IMG/VR virus record: IMGVR_UViG_3300035182_000721
Location: 1-33,135 of that record
Strand: one strand, 5' to 3'
DNA: 33,135 nucleotides
DNA from: a virus
Shown here: piece after piece, positions 7,032 through 27,099 of the stretch
Numbering within the stretch: position 1 is the stretch's first letter
Layout: each line of letters starts with the position of its first letter
Made by a program: the position numbers and the translations under genes
Notes under the pieces: model-generated
Told to the model about the DNA's origin: nothing
Database searches by the model: none
The model's input: the letters and a program-made list of their open reading frames with translations, nothing else

Positions 7032-7588
7032 GCGACACCCCTCAGGAGTCTCGTCAGCGCCTCGGTGAGGCGTCGACGCCGCGGGACGGTCCGAGTCTCG
7101 TGGAGGTCGGCGATCCCTCGCCAGAACGCAAACCTGGAGCGCGCGAGCGCCCACTCGGCTTCGGCTCGCAGTTCGGCGAGCCGGGCGCGCTTGGCCTCGG
7201 ACCGCCGAGCCCCGGCGACGAGCTCGTGCACCGGGCCGAGGCCGTGAAGCACGACGGCCACCGGCCCAGCGGCGCCGAGGTGGTCGGCGAGGAGCGCAGC
7301 GAGGGCGCGCGCGGGAGCCGAGTCCTCGTGCGCCGCGCGGAGGATCCGTTGCTCGTCGTGCGAGAGCCGGTGCAGGACGTCCGAGACCGCACGCCAGCGC
7401 GCGGCCGCTGGGATGGCCCGGATCGCGCGGTCATGCGCGGCAGAGGCCGTGCCGATCGCGTTGCTCGTGCCCCCTGCGCCCGCCATGCAAATTCCCTCGA
7501 AGGCCTCGTGTCCCGATATCAGCCCGAGGTCGCCATCAGGGCCGATCGTTTCGGAAAAGAACCATCTCAGCTCCTGCTCGACGTTCAC
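7028..7588 (-). CDS. Hypothetical protein downstream of dnaB
   Basis: A 186-residue, largely helical, Arg/Ala-rich protein. It starts at GTG 7588, overlapping the DnaB stop (GTGA). Visible parts are RWRAVSDVLHRLSHDEQRILRAAHED, a helix-turn-helix-like or sigma-like segment at about 63-90, then a hydrophobic helix (AAGPVAVVLHGLG) and a long basic helical C terminus. I do not recognise the family. Its place between replication genes and the packaging operon is where lambdoid phages keep late regulators such as Q. An antiterminator-like role is possible but unproven. Confidence 0.6.
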   Translation of the reverse strand: MNVEQELRWFFSETIGPDGDLGLISGHEAFEGICMAGAGGTSNAIGTASAAHDRAIRAIPAAARWRAVSDVLHRLSHDEQRILRAAHEDSAPARALAALLADHLGAAGPVAVVLHGLGPVHELVAGARRSEAKRARLAELRAEAEWALARSRFAFWRGIADLHETRTVPRRRRLTEALTRLLRGVA

Positions 7589-9066
7589 TGGCGACTCCTT
7601 CGCTGGCGCGGCTTCGGCCGCGCGTGATCCCAGCGCTCGACGTCGCCCGCGTGCGGCGTCTCGAGCGTGTACCTTTTACCATTGAATCGAGCGAAGACGC
7701 TCCCAACGTCGCGCCGTCGTCCCTTCGCGAGGATGATCTCGACGCAATCCTTCAGCGCGCGCGCGGCTTCCGTCGTGCGGTCGGGCAGGAGCAGCCAGAG
7801 CCGATGCAAGAAGAACACGAAATTCGAATCCTGTTCGATGCTCGACGAGTCCTTTAGATCCCGGAGCTTCGGTGGCTCGGTGCCGTTCGACGCGTCGCGG
7901 TTGAACTGCGCGAGGAGCATGACGTGCAATCCGAGCTCCATCGCGAGGAGCTTCAGCGCGCGGGTGATCATGCCGATCGAGAGGTCGTTTCGCTCGGCCT
8001 CGGGCCGGTCCATCAGGCCGAGGTAGTCGACTACCACCAGGCCGATGCGGCGTGGCTTGGAGGGATCCGAGGCGTTGCGTATGAACTCGCGCCCAGCGCG
8101 GCGCACGAGCGACCGGATCGCCGTGGCGCTCACGGGCGCGGTGTAGAACCAGAGCGGCAGCGCGCCGAGGGTGTTCGTCGCCGCGCGCAGGCGCTCGCGC
8201 TGCTCGTCGTCGAGCGCCCCGGTCTGCAGCTCCTCGTCGGAGATGGCCGCGAGCGAGCAGAGCGTGCGGTCGACGAGCTCGTCGACGGGCATCTCGAGGC
8301 TCACGTAAACCACGCCGATCGCCTCGCCATTGTGCGAGGTGCCGGCGACGTGCCGAGCGACCTGGAGCGCGAACGCGCTCTTGCCGCCTCCGGTCACCGC
8401 GGCGACGACCGAGAGCGCGCCGGGGCGCAGGCCTCCGGTGAGCTCGTCGAGCTCGTCGAGGCCGGTAGGGAGGCCTCGCGGGGAGCGCCGGCCCTGCCAC
8501 TGCTCGTCGAGATCGGCGACGCGCGCGACCATCGCGTCGTAGGCGACGACGAGCGCCGCATCGCGCTTCCGCTCGGCGACCTGGTGCACGGCCTCGGCGG
8601 CGCGGTTCGCGAGGGCCGCGAAGTCGCTCGGGTCCTCGAAGGCCTCGCCGGTGATCCGCTGGCAGGTCTCGATCAGCCGGCGCACGCCGGCCTTGTCGGC
8701 GACGATCTTCACGTATGCGTCGACGTGCGCGACGACGGGCGTCGCGTCGATCAGCTTCGCGAGGTAGCTCGTGCCGCCGACGGCCTGGAGCAGGCCGCGG
8801 TCGTTCAGCCACGAGCCGATGGTCTGCAGGTCGACGGGCGTCCCGACGCGCTGCAGCTCGAGGGCGGCCTCGTGGATCCGCCGGTGCGCGTCCGAGTACC
8901 AGTCCGCGGGATCGAGGTCGGCGATCTCGTCGAGCCCGCCGGGGCGGGAGAACACGTGGGCGATCAGCGCGCGTTCGACATCAAGGTCATGCGGGGGCAC
9001 GCGGCCGCCAACGTCGAGCACGCGCAGCTCGCGGCGCATGGTGCGCGGCTGGCGCCAGTCGGTCAC
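7585..9066 (-). CDS. dnaB: DnaB-like replicative helicase
   Basis: A 493-residue hexameric helicase that unwinds DNA at the fork and recruits primase. The N-terminal domain (about 24-125: PPHDLDVERALIAHVF, DPADWYSDAHRRIHEA) is the DnaB interaction domain. The RecA-like domain starts near 197 (RGLPTGLDELDELTGGL). Walker A is VTGGGKS (about 224-230) and Walker B is GLVVVDYLGLM (about 342-352), followed by LLAQFNRD and a C-terminal arginine-finger region. GTG 9066 is preceded by GGGAGG at 5-nt spacing and overlaps the stop of the upstream primosomal gene (GTGA). The full motif set is present. The frame also stays open upstream through that gene (see findings). Confidence 0.93.
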   Translation of the reverse strand: MTDWRQPRTMRRELRVLDVGGRVPPHDLDVERALIAHVFSRPGGLDEIADLDPADWYSDAHRRIHEAALELQRVGTPVDLQTIGSWLNDRGLLQAVGGTSYLAKLIDATPVVAHVDAYVKIVADKAGVRRLIETCQRITGEAFEDPSDFAALANRAAEAVHQVAERKRDAALVVAYDAMVARVADLDEQWQGRRSPRGLPTGLDELDELTGGLRPGALSVVAAVTGGGKSAFALQVARHVAGTSHNGEAIGVVYVSLEMPVDELVDRTLCSLAAISDEELQTGALDDEQRERLRAATNTLGALPLWFYTAPVSATAIRSLVRRAGREFIRNASDPSKPRRIGLVVVDYLGLMDRPEAERNDLSIGMITRALKLLAMELGLHVMLLAQFNRDASNGTEPPKLRDLKDSSSIEQDSNFVFFLHRLWLLLPDRTTEAARALKDCVEIILAKGRRRDVGSVFARFNGKRYTLETPHAGDVERWDHARPKPRQRRSRQ

Positions 9067-9728
9067 AGGAGCCTCCCGCGAGCCAGGAGAGCTTCGCGCG
9101 CTTCGCGCAGGCAGTCGGACGATGAGCGGCGGTTGGTGGCGGCTGTGCTTCCCGGATCTCCCGACGGCCCCGAAGGGGCTCCCCCCCCGGGAGGGGGGGC
9201 TAGGGGGGGATCTGGCGTAGGCGTAGGCGTAGGCGTAGGCGTAGGCGTCGGACCGGTGGACACCTTGGCGGATTCCGGCTGGACAGGCGTCTGGATTCCG
9301 CTCGGATTCCGGCTGGATTCCGTCTGGATTCCGCTCGGATTCCGGCTGGATTCCGTCTGGATTCCGTCTGGATTCCGACTGGAAGTCACCTGGCCCTTCT
9401 CGTTCCTGCCCTGCTTTTGACGCCCGATCCCCTTCCTGACGTTGTCCGAGGCTCGCTTCGCTTTGACGTCGGATGCGCTCGGGTTCCATTCGAGGAAGTC
9501 GTGGATCGTGTACCCACCATCCACCCGATCGAGCAGACGCACTTCGACGAGCTTCTTCAACTCGCTCTGTTTCGCAAACCCTTCGGCGATTTCGTCGGGG
9601 ACGAGGCCGTCGGTGAGCTGGGCGCAGGTCCACGTGAGCATCCGGACCCAGGCGCCGAAGGCCGCGTTCCCAGCCCGGACCACCTTCGCGTGGTAGCCCA
9701 TCTGGTCGTCGATCTTGACCCAGCTCAT
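9063..9728 (-). CDS. Primosomal / replication initiation protein carrying repeats
   Basis: A 221-residue protein directly upstream of dnaB. The N-terminal ~95 residues (MSWVKIDDQMGYHAKVVRAG, then WVRMLTWTCAQLTDGLVP, then YTIHDFLEWNPS) match the winged-helix N domain common in phage replication initiators and helicase-loader-like proteins. The rest is low-complexity: an 11-residue repeat (RNPSGIQTES type), a (TP)n run and Gly/Pro stretches. The DNA of this part holds 11-bp iteron-like repeats, so the gene probably contains the replication origin, as lambda gene O does. It probably binds the origin and brings DnaB to it. ATG 9728 overlaps the VRR-NUC stop (ATGA). Confidence 0.72.
   Translation of the reverse strand: MSWVKIDDQMGYHAKVVRAGNAAFGAWVRMLTWTCAQLTDGLVPDEIAEGFAKQSELKKLVEVRLLDRVDGGYTIHDFLEWNPSASDVKAKRASDNVRKGIGRQKQGRNEKGQVTSSRNPDGIQTESSRNPSGIQTESSRNPSGIQTPVQPESAKVSTGPTPTPTPTPTPTPDPPLAPPPGGGAPSGPSGDPGSTAATNRRSSSDCLREAREALLARGRLL
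9181..9209. repeat. Homopolymeric C8 / G7 / G7 tract
   Basis: On the plus strand a run of eight C (9181-9188) is followed by two runs of seven G (9193-9199, 9203-9209), all inside the end of the primosomal gene. The minus-strand mRNA therefore carries C7, C7 and G8 runs that can fold back on each other. In the primosomal frame they contain heptamers C_CCC_CCT and G_GGG_GGA, formally suited to -1 slippage. Replication slippage and sequencing error are also likely here. Confidence 0.6.
9214..9249. repeat. Hexamer tandem repeat (GGCGTA)n
   Basis: Five exact GGCGTA units and a sixth GGCGTC unit run from 9214 to 9249. On the coding (minus) strand they encode alternating Thr-Pro in the linker of the primosomal protein. 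The array sits about 20 bp from the 11-bp repeat array and next to the G-rich tract. Confidence 0.85.
9270..9380. repeat. 11-bp iteron-like array, candidate replication origin
   Basis: Eight uninterrupted 11-bp units with core GGATTCCG plus a three-base variable tail (CTC, GCT, TCT or ACT) run from 9293 to 9380. A further exact core lies at 9270-9280, separated by a 12-nt degenerate unit. Each core contains the small palindrome GGA-T-TCC, and the 11-bp period is about one helical turn. Three units make 33 nt, so the array also encodes an 11-residue protein repeat without breaking the frame. Position inside an initiator-like gene next to dnaB matches lambda-type origins. Origin function is inferred. 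Confidence 0.65.
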
Positions 9729-15698: not shown

Positions 15699-16334
15699 AT
15701 GAAGACCATCCATAGCACCGACAACGCGGACGTGGACCACATCGCCCTCTCCGCTGGCATCGCGCGCCTGAGCGCGCAGCCGTACGACGACGGCTACGCG
15801 TACTACGAGAGCGGCACGCGGGCCTGGTATTCGGTGTCGACGTCCGACGTCGCTGAGCTTGGGAGGCGCCTCGCCGCAGACCCGCGGGCCTACAGTTTGT
15901 GGTGCGCTGAGACGCAGTCCCACAACCTCACGGAGGACGGGCTGGCGGGTGACGATGTGACGGACGGGCCGGAGGCCACGGCCCTCCATCGAGGGGGCGA
16001 CATGGGCCGTGTGAGGGCCGGTGCCGACGGTGACGGCTCCGGAGACGGCTCCGGAGACGGCGACGGCTCTGGCGACGGTTCCGGCCGTAGCCGCGGCCAC
16101 GGCTACGGCGACGGTGATGGCGACGGCGACGACGCCGGATCTGGCTTCGGCGACGGCCACGGTTATGGATCTGGCTTCAGCTTCGGATTCGGATTCGAGC
16201 ACGGCTCCGGAGCCGGCACCGGCGACGGCTTCGGCGACGGCTCCGGAGCCGGCGTCGGTTTCGGTGACGGCTACGGTGACGGCTACGGTGGCGGCCGCGG
16301 CAGCGGCTTCGACGACGACGAAATTGCGGCGTAG
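15699..16334 (+). CDS. Accessory protein with Gly/Asp-rich low-complexity C terminus
   Basis: A 211-residue reading frame of two unlike parts. Residues 1-101 form a compact acidic domain (YDDGYAYYESGTRAWYSVSTSD, then ELGRRLAADPRAYSLWCAETQSH) that I do not recognise. From residue 102 (internal ATG 16002, MGRVRAGADGDGSG) nearly every second residue is Gly, alternating with Asp, Ser, Tyr and Phe to the end (DDDEIAA). The join falls inside a ~95-nt block that recurs at 16645-16738, so the frame looks like a fusion made by duplication. The Gly-rich part may also be made alone from 16002. Function unknown. RTX-like calcium binding, surface or phase-separating roles are only possibilities. Confidence 0.6.
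   Translation: MKTIHSTDNADVDHIALSAGIARLSAQPYDDGYAYYESGTRAWYSVSTSDVAELGRRLAADPRAYSLWCAETQSHNLTEDGLAGDDVTDGPEATALHRGGDMGRVRAGADGDGSGDGSGDGDGSGDGSGRSRGHGYGDGDGDGDDAGSGFGDGHGYGSGFSFGFGFEHGSGAGTGDGFGDGSGAGVGFGDGYGDGYGGGRGSGFDDDEIAA
15969..16063 (+). repeat. Duplicated ~95-nt block, copy 1
   Basis: This block matches 16645-16738 except for one extra C (GGCCCTCC versus GGCCTCC) and one substitution. It covers the last codons of a DUF6948-type gene and the first codons of the Gly/Asp-rich coding sequence. In this copy the DUF6948-end part is read in another frame because of the inserted base and the upstream fusion. Confidence 0.9.
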
Positions 16335-16689: not shown

Positions 16690-16738
16690 GGGCCGGTGCC
16701 GACGGAGACGGCTCCGGAGACGGCTCCGGAGACGGCGA
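16645..16738 (+). repeat. Duplicated ~95-nt block, copy 2
   Basis: This is the second copy of the block at 15969-16063. Here its first half encodes the true C terminus of the DUF6948-like protein and its second half opens the short Gly-rich frame. This is therefore the likelier ancestral arrangement. Confidence 0.9.
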
Positions 16739-25261: not shown

Positions 25262-27099
25262 TAGGTTACGGTCTCCTCACCGGACTGGGCGTTGAGATCC
25301 TGGATCTGCACCCGAAACTCCCGGGCGAATGCACGCGCGAAGCCCTGGGCTGCGGACTCAGAGACGTTGCCACCATCCAGGTTGAGGACGATCGAGAGGT
25401 TCTCGATGGTGACCCCGCCGCGCTCCTGGACCTGCGGAACAGGACCTCCGGCGATCGTGGGGATGTCCAGCGTGGGGAGCGGCGGAGGCTCCACCAGCTC
25501 CTCGACGGCCTCCCGAGCGTTGTCGTTCTCGCCACCGATGCCGGCGGCGAAACCCTCACCGACGAAACCGCCAATCTCGGCGAAGACCTTGGACGGGCTG
25601 GCGATCCCTAGTGCCTTCTTGGCTGCCGCAGGAAGCAGATCGAGAAGCCCCTCGATGGACTCAAGGAGCCATCGCCAACCGTCCTTGATGCCATCCCAGA
25701 GCCCGTCGACGATGTTCTGGCCGATGTCGAACAGGTCGATCGAGTCGAACCAGTCGGTCAGCTCATCCCAGGACTTTGGGATCACATCCCATACGTCAGC
25801 GATGGACGAGGCGATCTCAGCGATCTTCCTCGGGAAGAGCGTGAACGTGGAGATCATGCTCCCGAACGCAGCGCCTACGAATTCCGCCAGCCACTCGACG
25901 GTGGCACCGATCGCCGCCAGTGCGATCTGGGCACCCTCGGAGTCCCCGGTAAGTTGCTGGAAGGGCTTAAGGACTGGCTCAAGCCCCTTCATGAGACCAT
26001 TCGAGAATGCAGACCCGAGGTCGATGACAGCATCGGCCAGCCTGATCGCGCCGTTCAGGAACTGCTCGATGTCCTCGGGCTTGATCTTGCTGACCCAGTC
26101 GGCAACGCCCTGGAAAGCCCTTCCGAGCGTATCTCGGATCTTCTGGCCGCTCTCAGTGGTCGGGTCGAGGAGCTTGTTAATCGACTTGAGGGCCTCTATG
26201 AACGGCCCAGTCACCGCGGATTCCGCGAAGACTGAGTTGAGCTGGTTCTTGAGCCCGGTGAGCTGGCCCGAGATCGAATTGCCACCGATCTCCTTGGCGA
26301 TCGATCCGAGCGGCCCATTATGGTCGAGTTTGTTCGAGACGATCTCCAGGATCGCCTTCGTGCCCGTGTCTGCGTCGATCTTGCCGTCCTGAAGTAGCTT
26401 CTCGATCTCCTGCTTCGTCTTGCCGAATGAGGCCGAGCCTTGCATCGAGGTGAGCACCTGGAAGAACTCATCTGAGTCCCCGATTCCTGCGCCCTTGAGA
26501 TGGCCCAGCGTCTCCGCGGAGAGCTTACCCTTCTCTCGGAGTCCCTTGACAGCCTCGATCAGCCCCTTACCCGCCTGGTCACCCAGCACGGCGGAAACGT
26601 CGAGACCCGCGTTTAGGATGTCCTGGACCTGCTCGACGGCTAAGCCAGACAACCGGAGTTCTTTGTAAAACTCGGTTAGCTTCTCGGTCGGGAGGCCCGC
26701 GCCGTTGGCCATGCCACGGAGGGAATCGAGCGTTCTTTTGGCGCTCGTCCCGGTTCCGTCGATCGCCTCGAATGCGGCGAGAGAGCGGGTTTGAAACTCG
26801 CTGGCTTCGATCGCCCACTTCTCAGCGGCCACGACCATGGCTGCCGCAGTGGCTGCGACGGCAGCTCCTGCTGCTACGGCGAACTGAGCTACGTTGATCC
26901 ACGCCCCTTGGCTCGCCTCGCCCACACGCTTCATCGCGTCGGCGTGCGACTTGGACGCCTCCTCGGCCCGCTTCTCGGCCTTCTCGGCCTCGGAGAGCCC
27001 CGATTTGAGGCCCTTGAGGGACTTCTCTGCCTTGTCTGCATTCTTGCTCACATCATCGGTGAGCTTGATAGCGAACTCAGCTGAGTTGTTGGAGGACAC
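25261..27099 (-). CDS. Tail tape measure protein
   Basis: A 612-residue protein from GTG 27099. The N terminus is Lys/Glu/Ala-rich coiled coil (ADKAEKSLKGLKSGLSEAE and on). A hydrophobic segment AVAAGAAVAATAAAMVVAA (about 73-91) follows, then the tape-measure-like ALDSLRGMANGAGLPTEKL region and a C-terminal LAAGI/GEGFAAGIGGENDN part. It sets tail length and occupies the tube lumen before ejection. It lies right after the frameshifted chaperone, the standard place. At roughly 0.15 nm per residue it predicts a tail near 90 nm. Confidence 0.87.
   Translation of the reverse strand: MSSNNSAEFAIKLTDDVSKNADKAEKSLKGLKSGLSEAEKAEKRAEEASKSHADAMKRVGEASQGAWINVAQFAVAAGAAVAATAAAMVVAAEKWAIEASEFQTRSLAAFEAIDGTGTSAKRTLDSLRGMANGAGLPTEKLTEFYKELRLSGLAVEQVQDILNAGLDVSAVLGDQAGKGLIEAVKGLREKGKLSAETLGHLKGAGIGDSDEFFQVLTSMQGSASFGKTKQEIEKLLQDGKIDADTGTKAILEIVSNKLDHNGPLGSIAKEIGGNSISGQLTGLKNQLNSVFAESAVTGPFIEALKSINKLLDPTTESGQKIRDTLGRAFQGVADWVSKIKPEDIEQFLNGAIRLADAVIDLGSAFSNGLMKGLEPVLKPFQQLTGDSEGAQIALAAIGATVEWLAEFVGAAFGSMISTFTLFPRKIAEIASSIADVWDVIPKSWDELTDWFDSIDLFDIGQNIVDGLWDGIKDGWRWLLESIEGLLDLLPAAAKKALGIASPSKVFAEIGGFVGEGFAAGIGGENDNAREAVEELVEPPPLPTLDIPTIAGGPVPQVQERGGVTIENLSIVLNLDGGNVSESAAQGFARAFAREFRVQIQDLNAQSGEETVT

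Follow-up and report, generated by a model that had tools for sequence, protein, structure and literature searches.

An 11-bp iteron array inside a phage initiator gene as a very probable replication origin

Introduction

Only a minority of phages have a known replication origin. An origin whose iterons lie within the gene of their own initiator is a known kind; in phage lambda the iterons, of about 18-20 bp, are located inside gene O and are followed by an A+T-rich stretch, and the helicase-loading gene adjoins. In the lactococcal phages Tuc2009 and TP901-1, the gene of the replisome organizer is reported to contain a repeat-rich region that the protein binds and that serves as ori (PMC8965321), and ORF11 of phage r1t is referred to as a replisome organizer (Zuniga et al., 2002, cited in PMC8965321). 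The same arrangement is established for RepA_N plasmids such as pSK41, where the winged-helix N-terminal domain (NTD) binds boxes in the middle of rep, the central linker encoded by the ori is dispensable and the C-terminal domain (CTD) is DnaD-like (PMC5703833). For the plasmid-type RepA of mycobacteriophages, the cis-acting ori lies presumably in or beside repA (PMC7157519).

The stretch of DNA analysed here (the window) comprises the 33,135 nucleotides of the viral record IMGVR_UViG_3300035182_000721; one of its genes codes for a contractile tail sheath, and for this gene the best relatives with an annotation are those of Myxococcus phage Mx4 and Meiothermus phages. Inside a gene for a putative initiator it holds a row of 11-bp repeats, which an earlier sequence-only reading had likened to the logic of lambda ori. 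The likeness holds for the iterons within the initiator gene and for the adjoining helicase-related gene; the lambda iterons, however, are longer and accompanied by the A+T-rich stretch, and lambda uses the loader P, whereas the window phage encodes its own DnaB. No Pfam match to Phage_rep_O was found in the window initiator at E ≤ 1, and in its logic the locus is closer to the lactococcal P335 replisome organizers and to RepA_N plasmids than to lambda.

In r1t ORF11/Pro11 and Tuc2009 Rep an in-gene 11-bp array stands right behind the N-terminal DNA-binding domain, at their codons ~103-115, as in the window. The r1t gene has TGGAACC four times at 11-bp steps at codon ~103, and Tuc2009 Rep, annotated with the words 'contains origin of replication', has a GGCAACC-like 11-bp array at codon ~112. 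These cores differ from the GGATTCC of the window, both proteins have a DnaD-like C-domain, and r1t has a DnaC-like loader downstream instead of dnaB. The two belong to one profile group, A2 (E 1e-24 for r1t ORF11 and 1.6e-32 for Tuc2009 Rep), to which the window N-domain is remote (HMM E 0.008; profile-profile E 0.0017, probability 16%) and with which it was joined in iterated search. TP901-1 REP (ORF13) follows the same logic, since direct repeats in its own gene are reported to be bound and to act as ori (PMC8965321), yet by profile it is of another family, without the 11-bp array. RepA_N of the pSK41 kind shares the winged-helix NTD and the central position of the boxes in the initiator gene, but its Rep boxes are A+T-rich and its CTD contacts the DnaG primase; the RepA_N domain PF06970 gave no Pfam match in the window initiator.

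The Iteron Array and Its Gene

The 8-bp core GGATTCCG starts at 9293, 9304, 9315, 9326, 9337, 9348, 9359 and 9370, and the eighth unit closes the array (Table 1). These units had been called eight perfect tandem copies, which is true of the cores and of their exact 11-bp steps, whereas the 3-bp spacers vary (CTC, GCT, TCT, ACT) and build a partial 33-bp super-repeat; every spacer change leaves the core intact. The mini-palindrome GGA-T-TCC, said to be present in each unit, was found as GGATTCC in nine copies, eight in the array and one at 9270, where the outlying unit does contain the heptamer but stands outside the register of the others. A single further GGATTCC occurs in the rest of the window, at 26218, and the pair pattern GGATTCCGNNNGGATTCCG gave seven matches, compared with none in 100 dinucleotide shuffles. 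The array strand, folded as DNA, reached z -3.7; repeated near-palindromes would give such folding, and it was set aside as a function. The hexamer array and the G/C tract (9180-9211) that had been noticed beside the iterons are both there; they were rejected as origin parts, as they encode a Pro-rich linker and their DNA folding is ordinary, and they look like this linker rather than like elements of the origin.

Table 1. Features of the candidate origin, its initiator gene and the adjoining helicase gene in the window.
Feature	Position	Strand	Remarks
Core iteron array	9293..9380	.	8 units of GGATTCCG + 3-bp spacer; 11-bp pitch; dyad YGGAWTCCR
Outlying iteron GGATTCCGGCT	9270..9280	.	23 bp off the array; out of register by one base
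Degenerate 12-bp unit GGACAGGCGTCT	9281..9292	.	Between outlier and array; read from sequence
Degenerate unit GGAAGTCACCT (GGAAGTC)	9381..9391	.	Right edge of the array; read from sequence
GGCGTA hexamer array	9214..9248	-	Encodes Pro-Thr linker; probably outside the origin
Replication initiator gene, 221 aa	9063..9728	-	Holds the array at about codons 117-153; PHROG matches
N-terminal winged-helix domain, residues 1-110	9399..9728	-	AlphaFold2 prediction; proposed iteron binder
dnaB-type replicative helicase	7585..9066	-	DnaB_C E 1.4e-52, DnaB_N E 6.6e-23, phrog_19 E 1.9e-85; proposed loading target

The gene that holds the array had been described as initiator-like and immediately upstream of dnaB, and both statements are borne out. 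Its residues 1-186 match phrog_2447, 'replication initiation protein' (E 8.7e-35), a second match is to phrog_3926 (E 5e-19), and the dnaB GTG start overlaps the initiator stop codon by 4 bp (GTGA). Neither Pfam (E ≤ 1) nor NCBIfam gave a match for the initiator, and a recognisable DnaD-like C-terminal domain is absent from it. In an AlphaFold2 model of the N-domain, built with 61 aligned sequences, residues 1-117 have a mean pLDDT of 93 and are predicted to form a winged helix, with HTH helices at 45-51 and 54-62 and the wing at 66-75, followed by a long basic helix at 85-107. Among predicted viral structures compared by Foldseek, the nearest to the N-domain are phage HTH proteins and replisome organizers; in the PDB no significant relative was found, by fold or by profile. 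On the 5' side of the initiator gene lie genes for a VRR-NUC-like nuclease and a DEAD/ResIII helicase. A DnaB helicase resembling that of the window sits downstream in 17 of the 326 examined loci, the window counted.

Arrays Found by DNA Pattern

Three copies of GGAWTCC at 11-bp pitch, searched as a pattern in viral and genome contigs, were found in 69 viral and 82 genome contigs. Homologous domains were detected by an iterated profile seeded with the window N-domain. Of the 62 loci in which such a domain adjoins the array, 50 belong to the 69 viral contigs; in all 62 the array centre lies 325-506 bp behind the N-domain start, and these loci span 36-71% GC. The control pattern with 12-bp pitch gave 45 contigs, of which 5 were linked to the domain, versus 50 of 69 at 11 bp (Fisher p 5e-11), and judged by sequence appearance these control contigs are mostly 4-codon protein repeats. 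Four loci have initiator-linked GGAWTCC arrays at 12-bp pitch, a possible pitch variant, and a 12-bp array is also present in Arthrobacter phage 1191A.

One may ask if the array is a neutral minisatellite produced by recent slippage, given that the unit cores of the window hardly differ and that some units are duplicated in blocks of 33 bp. This is highly improbable, since the spacer changes all leave the 8-bp core untouched, very divergent phages, of 36-72% GC, have an identical core at identical pitch and place, and such arrays are nearly absent from the remainder of the same loci.

The genome contigs were rejected as a wider sample, because many of their matches are an unrelated Nocardia repeat. 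This palindromic repeat of the GGATTCCTCGAGGAATCC type is found in many Nocardia genomes, often near hairpin-like sequence; no initiator domain adjoins it, and it is a separate genomic repeat that has only the core in common. When 198 actinobacterial genomes were searched with PHROG, just 7 matches came out.

Conservation of DNA and Protein

The array is also read as an 11-residue repeat (SSRNPSGIQTE), as had been noticed earlier, because 33 nucleotides make three units. It could thus be the peptide that is selected, as a linker, with the regularity of the DNA as a by-product; the array is in frame throughout, no stop codon is formed and the spacers show the 33-bp super-repeat. Protein selection, however, would yield 33-bp and not 11-bp periods, and the codons of 77 GGANTCC arrays point in the other direction. 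Their 384 units are spread evenly over the three codon phases, and third codon positions, in units that were not forced by the search, fit the core with the same frequency as the other two positions. The central bases are mixed in 51 of the 77 arrays, where exchange of the central A/T alters the amino acid in every codon phase (I/F, N/I, E/D); a purine prevails at base 8 and a pyrimidine at base 11, widening the dyad to YGGANTCCR. The conservation of third positions, together with A/T swaps that change the amino acid, argues that selection acts on DNA, and judged by these codons the conserved object is the DNA rather than the protein. Moreover, the stop codon of a short ORF that encodes the N-domain only precedes the array in 11 of the 62 loci; in most of them another open frame covers the array, so these loci speak for an altered protein context and not for absent translation. 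Selection of the linker peptide is accordingly a very unlikely source of the array. The sequence-only reading had named as one outcome against it that related phages keep the protein repeat with scrambled codons; the opposite was found, the DNA array being kept while the protein repeat changes.

In eleven loci the initiator seems to be split, the ORF with the N-domain only (~103-125 aa) ending just before the array.

Cores Across Clades

By protein alone, 264 initiator homologs were collected and 236 distinct segments were scored by the best self-match of a 33-bp window at a given lag, with at least 24 of 33 positions, within 300 bp behind the domain. At lag 11 this score was reached by 35% of the 236 segments, but by a single one of 3007 control segments taken from other parts of these loci; the same scoring gave 8% at lags 10 and 12, 18% at lags 15 and 22, and 0-5% at the rest. 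The cores are clade-specific (GGANTCC, GGTTGCC/GGCAACC, GGAACC, GTATAC, TGTCAG, CGACACG, AGCAAA, GAASTTC, GTCCGC), so that between clades the core varies while pitch and place are constant, and four of four dyad pairs are present in 32% of the distinct consensus cores versus 8% in shuffles. Core type tracks the N-domain tree (7 changes versus at least 19 in shuffles; 13 versus at least 28). Some of the columns that associate most strongly with core type fall in the post-wing helix, and window residues 91, 95 and 99 are among the top columns; as the association includes shared ancestry, this is only suggestive.

A large clade, noted in six loci, has an 11-bp unit CGACACGACGG at the same in-gene place, with no obvious dyad. 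The Streptococcus satellite phage Javan230 has the same initiator type together with an 11-bp GACAACC array, and satellites thus seem to use this origin design. In the actinophage relatives VWB, Phinally and Cumberbatch, the initiator is without a strict 11-bp array.

Within the open-access literature, spread across phyla with a fixed pitch and a changeable core appears little described. Our opinion is evenly divided on whether all these arrays form a single broad class of phage origin, from Clostridia to Actinobacteria and beyond, with a fixed 11-bp pitch, a fixed in-gene place and a dyad core of 6-8 bp that drifts with the N-domain, perhaps via the post-wing basic helix. Such a class, if real, would make it possible to find the origins of many uncultured phages in their sequence and to read off the specificity there. 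Since the core changes from clade to clade while the pitch is constant, swaps of domains and cores offer a direct test of initiator-origin specificity.

The Array as a Probable Replication Origin

The row of repeats is kept, and its place with it, in phages that differ widely, even where the encoded protein has changed; for this reason the array is very probably the iteron cluster of a replication origin nested in its own initiator gene and bound by the N-terminal winged helix of that initiator. Established here are the array, the gene family, the predicted fold, the conservation of DNA over protein and the presence of arrays in relatives that are reported to have an in-gene origin. The origin candidate proposed by the sequence-only reading is in this way supported by the gene family, by the predicted winged helix and by the arrays at the same place in r1t ORF11 and Tuc2009 Rep. 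The N-terminal winged-helix domain (residues 1-~107) would bind the YGGAWTCCR dyads; the 11-bp spacing puts these on roughly one face of the DNA, where we propose that protomers stack side by side. The stacked protomers may distort or open the neighbouring DNA, the initiator would bring in the phage DnaB encoded immediately downstream, as the gene order suggests, and replication would start at the array. The protein stretch that the array encodes is proposed to be a tolerant linker, in which a DNA element can live.

The sites bound by the initiator could instead be mainly an autoregulatory operator or a copy-number/incompatibility site, with the replication start elsewhere. Binding arrays in initiator genes can serve both roles, and the overlap of the initiator gene with dnaB would make repression effective. 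No AT-rich unwinding region stands out near the array, the maximum being 48% AT at 9541 (99th percentile of the genome). However, the array lies mid-gene rather than at a promoter in nearly all relatives, the array of Tuc2009 Rep is at the same place in a gene annotated as origin-containing, and the reported binding sites of lactococcal replisome organizers are repeat-rich regions within the organizer genes, with the role of ori (PMC8965321). A mainly regulatory role is therefore improbable. Cumulative GC skew, which had been suggested as a check on the origin, does not turn clearly at the array; it tells little here, because gene strand dominates the skew.

As a replication origin, the candidate is placed to about 110 bp by sequence alone. 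The rule that 11-bp dyad iterons stand right behind the initiator N-domain gives candidate origins in many phages, and it also covers two named lactococcal phages on which experiments had been done before.

Repeats of another kind were seen elsewhere in the window: long arrays of 6- and 12-bp units (CGACGG, GACGGCTCCGGA) at 16025-16295 and 16703-16736, in or near the small ORF 15699-16334, encode Gly/Asp-rich repeats, with several frames open.
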